Assembly (NCBI RefSeq): GCF_900141705.1
Contig: NZ_FQYM01000019.1
Coordinates: forward strand, 1-64,000
Direction: 5' to 3'
Origin: Fibrobacter sp. UWP2
GTDB lineage: Bacteria; Fibrobacterota; Fibrobacteria; Fibrobacterales; Fibrobacteraceae
Length of the DNA stretch: 64,000 bases
Part shown: positions 18,200 through 34,577 of the stretch, in pieces
Layout: every line of letters begins with the position of its first letter
How positions within the stretch are numbered: the stretch's first letter is position 1
Position numbers and translations under genes: made by a program
The notes under the pieces: model-generated
Told to the model about the DNA's origin: nothing
The model's database searches: none
What the model saw: only the letters and a program-made list of their open reading frames with translations

Positions 18200-18282
<83 letters not shown>

Positions 18283-31997: not shown

Positions 31998-32972
31998 TCA
32001 CTGCGCCATAGCTTTGTATGGTACCCCAAATTCATTCTTCTTTATCAAATTGTACAGGTTGCTGCGGCTGATGCCCAGGGCGCGTGCGGTTTGCATCTTG
32101 TTGCCGCGGAACTTTTCGAGGGTGCGTTCAATGATTTTCCAGTCGGGAGGGGGCGTGCGGAATGTCGCCCCGCGGTACACAGGGTTATGGTTGTCTTCGC
32201 CACAGAGCGGAACAGCGAATTCTTCACCCAGGATTTCGCATAGGGTAATGCCGTGGGGTTTCAAGAGGGTGTAGCGCTGTAAGACGTTTTTGAGCTGGCG
32301 GATGTTCCCAGGCCAGCTGTAAAGGCGTAGCCGTGCGAGTTCCGTCGCCGAGAGGGCTTCGCGCGGTTCACTGCCTTCACGCGGTTCGCAACCTTCGTTT
32401 GCAGGTGTGGCATCGACTGACTCGCGCGCCTCCCGCCACAGCTTCTGTGCCAGCTCCTCGAAGTCGCCGCGCTCGCGCAGGGCGGGAAGCTGCACGGGGA
32501 AGGCGTTCAATCTAAAGTACAGGTCTTCGCGGAACCGCCCCGCCACAACTTCTTCCTTGAGGTTCTTGTTGGTGGCGCATACTAGGCGGAAGTCCACCGG
32601 GATGCTCCTCGTCGCGCCCACGGGCATTACCGCCCGCTCCTGCAGTATGCGCAGGAGCCGGCTTTGGCTCTCGTAGGGCAGTTCCCCGATCTCGTCCAAA
32701 AAAAGGGTGCCGCCCTCCGCCGCCCGCACGACCCCGATTTGGTCCGCGGTGGCGCCGGTGTAGGCGCCGCGCTTGGCGCCCTCGAGTGTGCTTTCGATGA
32801 GGTTCTTGGCAATGGCCCCGCAGTTCACGGCTATAAAGGGCCCGCCGGGGCGCGGACCCGCTCTGTGGAGGAACCGCGCCGCCACCTCCTTGCCCGTGCC
32901 CGATTCACCTTGGATCAGCACCGTTATGGAGGATTTTGCCGCTATTTGGAGTAGATCATTTGCTGTTTTCAT
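31998..32972 (-). CDS. Sigma-54-dependent transcriptional activator without sensory domain (PspF-like architecture)
   Basis: A 324-residue AAA+ enhancer-binding protein. Walker A is GESGTGKEVAARF at about residue 21, the sigma-54 loop reads GAYTGA instead of GAFTGA, Walker B is GGTLFLDEIGEL, and a Fis-type helix-turn-helix with ARALGISRSNLYNLIKK closes the protein. No receiver, PAS or GAF domain precedes the AAA+ core, as in PspF, so control must come from a partner protein or from expression. Ribosome-binding site AGAGG precedes the ATG. The RpoN gene is not in the window. Confidence 0.92.
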   Translation of the reverse strand: MKTANDLLQIAAKSSITVLIQGESGTGKEVAARFLHRAGPRPGGPFIAVNCGAIAKNLIESTLEGAKRGAYTGATADQIGVVRAAEGGTLFLDEIGELPYESQSRLLRILQERAVMPVGATRSIPVDFRLVCATNKNLKEEVVAGRFREDLYFRLNAFPVQLPALRERGDFEELAQKLWREARESVDATPANEGCEPREGSEPREALSATELARLRLYSWPGNIRQLKNVLQRYTLLKPHGITLCEILGEEFAVPLCGEDNHNPVYRGATFRTPPPDWKIIERTLEKFRGNKMQTARALGISRSNLYNLIKKNEFGVPYKAMAQ

Positions 32973-33023: not shown

Positions 33024-33055
33024 TTGCTATTTTTACGCCCGCGCCAATAATTTTA
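33024..33055 (+). promoter_or_regulatory. Promoter-like motif upstream of the lysC leader (TTG-N21-TAATTTTA)
   Basis: TTG at 33024 and TAATTTTA at 33048 with 21-nt spacing match the FCB-type consensus. A start near 33060 would place the first leader hairpin at the RNA 5' end. Confidence 0.5.
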
Positions 33056-33059
33056 CATT

Positions 33060-33178
33060 GGAGCACCACAAAGTGGCTGGCTAGGTGGGTAGCCTTGGGC
33101 AGCGCCCCGAACGGGGTGCGGACTATGAGTCAAGTAGTCCTGCTCGAAGGTGAGAGGCCGGCGGCCCAAAAGGAAAAA
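33060..33178 (+). ncRNA. Highly structured 5' leader upstream of lysC (candidate cis-regulatory RNA)
   Basis: About 119 nt between the predicted start site and the lysC ATG hold consecutive hairpins: CCAC/GTGG (33066-33076), GGCTA/TAGCC (33079-33094), GCGCCCC-GAAC-GGGGTGC (33102-33119), GGACTA/TAGTCC (33120-33140) and GGCC/GGCC (33156-33166). An alternative long-range stem CCTTGGGC (33093-33100) with GCCCAAAAGG (33164-33173) would enclose the third and fourth hairpins and bury the ribosome-binding site, and competes with the second and fifth. It does not match the lysine or SAM riboswitch consensus by eye. Confidence 0.5.
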
Positions 33179-34501
33179 ATGAGTCAAAGAATCGTATGCA
33201 AGTTCGGTGGCAGCTCTGTCGCCGATGCCGGCCAGTTCAAGAAGATCAAGGCCATCGTTGAATCCGACAAGAATCGCAAGATTATCGTGGTTTCGGCCCC
33301 GGGCAAGAGAAATCCCAAGGAAACGAAGCTCACCGACCTCCTCTACAGCACCTATGACCTGGCCAGCAAGGGCCTCGATTTTAGCGCCCCGTGGAACCTG
33401 ATTCGCAGCCGCTACGACGAGATCTGCAAGGACCTCGGTCTCGAAAACAAGCTCAACGAGGACCTCGACAGCCTCGAGGACAAGCTCAAGAACCATCCCG
33501 AGTCCGTGAGCACCGACTTCCTCGTCTCCCGCGGTGAGTTCCTGTGCGCCCGCCTCATGGCCAAGTACCTGGGTGCCAACTTCGTCGACAGTTTCCCGCT
33601 CATCACGTTCGACGACAAGTACCGCATCGCCCCCAGGACCTACGAAGAAATCGCCAAGACTTTGGGTGACGAGAACCAGCTCTACGTGCTGCCCGGCTTT
33701 TACGGCAGCAACCTCCGTGGCGAAGTCAAGACCTTCAGCCGTGGCGGCTCCGACATCACGGGCGCAATACTCGCTAACGGCATCGATGCCGCCAAGTACG
33801 AGAACTGGACCGATGTTTCGGGCATGCTCATGGCCGACCCGCGCATTGTCGAAAACCCGCTGCCCATCGAATACGTGAGCTACCGCGAAATCCGCGAACT
33901 CGCCTACTCCGGCGCAAGCGTGCTCCACGACGAATCCATCGCCCCTTGCCGCGCGAAGAAGATTCCCATCAACATCCGCAACACGAACCGCCCCGAAGAC
34001 GCGGGCACCATTATCGGCCCCACTCCGGAAGAATCCAAGCTCCCGATTACGGGTGTTGCCGGCCGCAAGGGCTTCTCGATGATCTACATCGAAAAGTCCA
34101 TGATGAACAAGGAAGTGGGCTTTGGTCGCCGCGTGCTCGCCGTGCTCGAAAGCGAAGGCCTCTCTTACGAACTGTGCCCGAGCGCCATCGACTCCATGAG
34201 CATCGTGGTGGATAGCAAGGCTCTCGACGCCGTGCAGGATGTGGTCCTCGAAGACATCACGCAGCAGATGCGCCCCGACCGTATCAAGGTCTTCCCGGGC
34301 ATCTCGCTCATCGCGACTGTCGGTCACGGCATGACGAACAAGATCGGTGTGGCTGCGAAGCTCTTCACCGCTCTCGCCGAGAACAAGGTGAACGTTCGCA
34401 TCATCGACCAGGGTTCTTCGCAGATCAACATCATCACCGGTGTTGACGAAGCCGACACCGAGAAGGCTATCAAGGCCATCTACGGCGCTTTCGTGAAGTA
34501 A
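33179..34501 (+). CDS. lysC: Aspartate kinase, monofunctional
   Basis: Catalyses the first step of the aspartate pathway to Lys, Thr, Met and diaminopimelate. I choose ATG 33179 (MSQRIVCKFGGSSVADAGQF), preceded by AGGA, giving 440 residues. The kinase core includes KFGGSSVAD near the N-terminus and FSRGGSDITGAILA at the substrate site. The C-terminus carries two ACT-like segments, the usual site of lysine feedback (residues from about 290, including GFGRRVLAVLESEG and VGHGMTNKIGVAAKLFTALA). The frame is open further upstream through the leader, where another ATGAGTCAA occurs at 33125. Confidence 0.93.
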   Translation: MSQRIVCKFGGSSVADAGQFKKIKAIVESDKNRKIIVVSAPGKRNPKETKLTDLLYSTYDLASKGLDFSAPWNLIRSRYDEICKDLGLENKLNEDLDSLEDKLKNHPESVSTDFLVSRGEFLCARLMAKYLGANFVDSFPLITFDDKYRIAPRTYEEIAKTLGDENQLYVLPGFYGSNLRGEVKTFSRGGSDITGAILANGIDAAKYENWTDVSGMLMADPRIVENPLPIEYVSYREIRELAYSGASVLHDESIAPCRAKKIPINIRNTNRPEDAGTIIGPTPEESKLPITGVAGRKGFSMIYIEKSMMNKEVGFGRRVLAVLESEGLSYELCPSAIDSMSIVVDSKALDAVQDVVLEDITQQMRPDRIKVFPGISLIATVGHGMTNKIGVAAKLFTALAENKVNVRIIDQGSSQINIITGVDEADTEKAIKAIYGAFVK

Positions 34502-34535: not shown

Positions 34536-34547
34536 AAAGATTAAAAA

Positions 34548-34577
34548 ACGTCTCGCCTTGGGCGGGACGTTTTTTTT
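34548..34577 (+). terminator. Rho-independent terminator of lysC
   Basis: Perfect hairpin ACGTCTCGCC-TTG-GGCGGGACGT (one T-G wobble) followed by eight T residues. Confidence 0.9.

Follow-up and report, generated by a model that had tools for sequence, protein, structure and literature searches.

A covarying structured RNA in the lysC leader of Fibrobacter, an orphan riboswitch candidate of an unlisted family

The lysC leader of Fibrobacter sp. UWP2 (33075-33166, plus strand, in the 64,000-nucleotide stretch of contig NZ_FQYM01000019.1 that was analysed, here termed the window) is a real structured RNA; its fold consists of a closing stem P1, a conserved internal loop, a helix P2 with a bulged G, and a tip formed by the hairpins P3 and/or P4. 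On sequence comparison, it is an unlisted RNA family of a known kind, a cis-regulatory leader RNA and orphan riboswitch candidate, and on balance we favor the reading that it is a cis-acting leader RNA of a new family that controls lysC translation in Fibrobacter and one neighboring genus. The leader folds at -50.1 kcal/mol, compared to -42.0 ± 3.4 kcal/mol for dinucleotide shuffles (z = -2.36; two of 200 shuffles as low), in agreement with the original prediction of a structured leader between the promoter region and the lysC start codon (ATG at 33179).

The 5' strand of P1 (33075-33085; GGCTG, bulged G33080, CT, bulged A33083, GG) shows compensatory changes and pairs with the 3' strand CCGGCGGCC (33158-33166), which lies two bases 5' of the ribosome-binding site; the individual pairs are 33075-33166, 33076-33165, 33077-33164, 33078-33163, 33079-33162, 33081-33161, 33082-33160, 33084-33159, and 33085-33158. 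Across the distinct leaders, the end of P1 and the conserved AAAGG ribosome-binding site are separated by one to three bases. P1 contains G-U pairs and bulges and is weak alone; it is regarded as a marginal helix because its mean calculated pairing is 0.36, versus 0.65 for P2. The internal loop has a 5' side of unpaired, conserved bases (UGGGUA, 33086-33091) and a conserved 3' side (GAGAGG, 33152-33157); this combination occurs in the window and in most members, and CAAGUA/CAGGGG takes its place in a sub-clade that lacks P4. Helix P2 joins GCCTTGGGC (33092-33100) to a 3' strand (33142-33151) with the invariant bulged G33146, present in 26 of 26 distinct leaders; its pairing is maintained in 100% of cells, with 16 double-change branches. 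Hairpin P3 (GCGCCCC-GAAC-GGGGTGC, 33102-33119) shows compensatory changes at four of its seven pairs where it is present, and hairpin P4 (GGACTAT-GAGTCAA-GTAGTCC, 33120-33140), which carries a 7-nt loop, at five of seven, with 12 double-change branches for the six inner pairs; these two strong hairpins had already been drawn in the original prediction, and covariation confirms them as real and conserved. Since P3 is absent from half of the distinct leaders and P4 from one sub-clade, the core of the element comprises P1, the internal loop and P2. The P4 loop region of the window (33125-33133) reads ATGAGTCAA, identical to the first three lysC codons (33179-33187); this repeat is located 54 bases upstream of the lysC start, in frame, and is not conserved in relatives.

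Helix counts were based on an alignment of the 26 distinct leaders. The helices P1 to P4 are paired in 97.9% of the cells, and 14 pairs have changed on both sides, compared to 6.8 in shuffles and five at most in slid controls; RNAalifold, used independently, lengthened P1 through two bulges, and with this extended P1 double changes are found at 17 of 32 pairs. Because the genomes are related, a tree-based null model was used to account for kinship, with columns evolving independently on the lysC tree in 200 simulations. On this tree, P1, P2, and P4 together accumulated 33 branches with pairing-preserving double changes where 1.5 were expected, and 99.5% of their cells are paired versus 81.6% in the simulations; none of the 200 simulations reached either value. 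As a caveat, an all-against-all covariation search with no structure prior left most individual pairs non-significant; this blind search is underpowered because the sequences are closely related, and the support therefore applies to the proposed structure as a whole. The RNA lies on the lysC sense strand, since G-U combinations occupy 244 cells and A-C combinations three. The proposal of a candidate new RNA in the lysC leader has thus gained abundant compensatory changes in its stems across relatives.

A lysC gene was identified in 156 of the 168 Fibrobacterota genomes, and its upstream regions were compared across the phylum; in addition, the element was searched with a covariance model. The model search recovered it from 71 of the 80 Fibrobacter genomes and from each of the three genomes of a neighboring genus (g24); an alignable leader of approximately 100 nt occurs in nearly all Fibrobacter and all three g24 genomes. 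Each genome carries one copy, and every fetched copy stood directly before lysC or was cut by a contig end; an apparent second copy in one genome (G152) was a truncated remnant of another lysC leader where a contig ends, and a match of 20.7 bits in another (G080) proved spurious on alignment. Elsewhere in the family the leader is short, and the ATG soon follows a promoter-like box. Among the nine Fibrobacter genomes without a match, six yielded no lysC match, two had lysC or its leader cut by contig ends, and one, G031, is the sole true absence found, with an intact lysC behind an unrelated leader. This G031 leader (L101, G031:C44:46500-48200, minus strand) forms three consecutive hairpins roughly 130 nt ahead of the lysC start, each with GAGUCAA as its 7-base loop, as on P4 of the window.

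Several leaders depart from the main form. In the G024 leader (L025), tip and 5' loop have the form of the P4-less sub-clade, and P2 and the 3' loop that of the main type, which suggests recombination inside the element; the leader of G165, a member of genus g24 (L063), has the P4-less form that is known otherwise from a Fibrobacter sub-clade, its two congeners have the main form, and a transfer of lysC together with its leader is possible. The 20-60 nt upstream of the core are highly variable in relatives (e.g., L016, L034, L037, and L007); hairpins such as GGCGACCGCAAGGTCGCC appear to be inserted between promoter and core, and in one group the 5' part is wholly different. The flank CAGACATAGAC was considered as a separate genome-wide element and discarded, as genomes that carry it have it nowhere but at the lysC leader. 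In metagenome-assembled genomes, several assemblies break inside the lysC leader (contigs L024, L026, L027, L030, L141, and L151), probably because the leader and the start of lysC are near-identical among co-occurring strains.

The gene downstream (33179-34501, plus strand) encodes a monofunctional aspartate kinase of 440 amino acids (NF006540, 529 bits against a cut-off of 434; Pfam AA_kinase and ACT domains), and a LysC protein query against the window genome, G000 of the genus Fibrobacter, returned lysC as its sole match. A predicted intrinsic terminator, also readable in the sequence (AAAACGTCtcgccttgggcgGGACGTTTT, 34545-34573), follows the gene and suggests that lysC is transcribed alone. 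The ribosome-binding site, AAAGGA (33169-33174), was read directly from the sequence, and AAAGG is kept in every distinct leader. A TATTTTTAC box at 33028-33036 is the likely promoter element (-7/-10) of lysC; it also stands before lysC in many of the family's genera that do not have the RNA element. The transcription start first predicted at 33048-33055 appears doubtful by comparison with this better-conserved box, since its TAATTTTA lies within a small hairpin, P0 (CCAAT-aattttac-ATTGG, 33044-33061), outside the conserved core; at the P0 position, most relatives have a predicted hairpin with unrelated stem sequences, and the others have a different one or no clear hairpin. The divergently oriented neighbor in the window (31998-32972, minus strand) encodes a short sigma-54 activator-like protein with AAA+ and Fis-type HTH domains and no match to a receiver domain. 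The gene upstream of the leader differs among relatives (one main context in 30 genomes, a second in 20, and several singletons), and sequence identity further upstream did not rise above shuffle level among relatives; the leader thus goes with lysC, and not with its neighbor.

No known family accounts for the element, as had been anticipated. None of the Rfam 15 families, T-box included, reached its gathering score over the window leader, the scan of the window returning a tRNA at 18203 only, and the leaders of five diverse relatives had no Rfam match either; the near-misses Vax2os1_2, a SAM-SAH fragment, and ZFAT-AS1_3 were chance or fragmentary matches. The lysine riboswitch (L box, RF00168) was not detected in the leader at gathering score or at E values up to 10, nor in any of the 168 Fibrobacterota genomes, and was recovered in all controls (E. 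coli, B. subtilis, T. maritima, and L. lactis); the original prediction had likewise set the leader apart from this riboswitch. The SAM-I riboswitch (RF00162) was found in none of 39 relatives, and SAM/SAH (RF01727) matched a 20-base fragment only, at 11.6 bits versus a cut-off of 40. The element model gave no match at E 0.001 in 395, 247, and 298 genomes sampled from three other phyla (940 genomes around Bacteroidia, Spirochaetaceae, and Gemmatimonadetes MAGs), phyla that offered no positive control for the search. Across 84,980 species genomes, a pattern scan yielded 50 loci, of which the known Fibrobacter locus alone scored; the others remained at or below 15.2 bits. No description of a Fibrobacter lysC leader RNA was found in the literature searched.

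The lysine riboswitch resembles the Fibrobacter element in being a structured lysC leader that plausibly takes part in feedback control of the aspartate pathway; however, it is larger, with 182 model positions compared to the 92-nt core described here (about half), and it forms a large multi-helix junction instead of two stacked helices with a variable tip. Compact translational riboswitches of the SAM-II, preQ1, and SAM/SAH types have an aptamer that abuts or contains the ribosome-binding site; the Fibrobacter element is similarly short, has conserved unpaired bases, no terminator, and a closing strand that adjoins the ribosome-binding site, but it has no sequence or covariance match to these types and follows a different helix plan. 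In its general description, a metabolic gene's leader RNA with a conserved and covarying structure, it agrees with riboswitches; orphan riboswitch candidates from comparative genomics have been proposed on the same type of evidence, a covarying leader RNA upstream of a metabolic gene, and the main texts of two such studies contain no lysC or Fibrobacter case (PMC2864571, PMC8632094). The distribution of the lysC element is far narrower than that of most such candidates.

Taken as a cis-acting leader RNA, the element is probably a metabolite riboswitch of a new family. The internal loop would be the likely binding pocket, and the P3/P4 tip would be expendable. An effector, most likely a small aspartate-family metabolite such as lysine, would bind and lock P1; the locked P1 would hinder ribosome loading, and less lysC would be translated. 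A marginal P1 fits a closing stem that is stabilized by a ligand or a protein, and since no terminator is predicted within the leader, control of translation or stability appears favored. As lysC is the sole aspartokinase found, and neither lysine nor SAM-I riboswitches were detected, an end product of the aspartate family, such as lysine, is the most plausible and most natural effector. More specifically, and more tentatively, the element could represent a new riboswitch class for an aspartate-family end product that evolved within the Fibrobacteraceae, either a lysine sensor not homologous to the known one or an RNA sensor of threonine or diaminopimelate, the first of its kind. Against a riboswitch stands the fact that G031 manages with an unrelated lysC leader, and that no conserved alternative pairing emerged to give a classical two-state switch; moreover, riboswitch classes are seldom confined to two genera and a single gene, a pattern that would fit a protein-binding autoregulatory site as well.

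This narrow distribution helps the main rival explanation, that LysC itself or another RNA-binding protein binds the leader and thereby represses or protects the lysC mRNA. Protein-bound autoregulatory leaders are known from ribosomal protein operons, and confinement to one gene, one lineage, and one copy per genome is typical of autoregulatory sites. The P4 heptaloop, GAGUCAA or GAGGAAA, is common to most members, and GAGUCAA loops recur three times in the hairpins of the otherwise unrelated lysC leader of G031; however, P4 is not essential, given that a whole sub-clade lacks it and that its loop varies in G125 and G128, and the best-conserved part of the element is an internal loop within the closing stem, as in an aptamer. 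Elsewhere in G000 and G031, GAGTCAA shows no obvious excess of hairpins among the matches listed, and GAGUCAA hairpins were accordingly dropped as a regulon motif. A protein site is a possible but rather unlikely explanation. A constitutive structure that senses nothing, and that serves lysC mRNA stability, ribosome access or a released small RNA, appears less probable still: a stable 5' structure on a highly conserved gene, and the different hairpins that G031 has instead, would suit such a role, but conservation of the unpaired loop positions and of the bulged G equals that of the stems, and stability alone requires neither.

The switch envisaged in the original prediction, in which the conserved hairpins would alternate with a long-range stem of CCTTGGGC (33093-33100) and GCCCAAAAGG (33164-33173) that hides the ribosome-binding site, is very improbable as a conserved mechanism. 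The stem can be drawn in the window species, where forced folding gives near-equal energies (-48.2 kcal/mol for the long-range stem versus -48.5 kcal/mol for the conserved fold), and 83% of its cells can pair across the alignment; yet 23 of 26 distinct leaders cannot form its outermost pair, two inner pairs are broken in eight and four of them, it cannot form in the P4-less sub-clade, and its covariation is at chance (reached by 38-140 of 500 shuffles and 34-48 of 200 lysC-tree simulations). It occupies the P2 5' strand, the P1 3' strand, and the ribosome-binding site, and thus clashes with covarying P2 and P1, which need the same strands; its predicted occupancy of the ribosome-binding site averages approximately 0.4%. 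The long-range stem is a species-level alternative at most. A 4-bp alternative between GGGU in the loop and GCCC in the P1 3' strand can form in 93% of cells and was rejected because it shows no covariation; across relatives, no conserved alternative pairing or sequestering stem for the ribosome-binding site was found, and P1 adjoins that site. That the region is coding, as an N-terminal extension of LysC or a leader peptide, can practically be dismissed. The lysC frame is open upstream in G000, with an in-frame ATG at about 33125, but one-base indels (alignment columns 13, 92, and 100) and the gain or loss of P3 and P4 break any common frame, the LysC start is conserved in genera without the leader, and substitutions keep the pairing. 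A leader-peptide attenuator was rejected because indels between relatives break the frames and the leader contains no terminator-like site.

Fibrobacter species are dominant fiber-degrading bacteria of the rumen and gut, and in them the route to lysine, threonine, and methionine is entered through lysC alone; in a lineage where lysine riboswitches are not detectable, RNA structure precedes this same gene. As a compact RNA of defined fold, the element is open to testing, with natural variants and its natural loss from G031 at hand. Should lysine prove to be its ligand, the element would have solved independently in evolution the task that the L box performs; should it be threonine or diaminopimelate, the ligands sensed by RNA would gain a new one.
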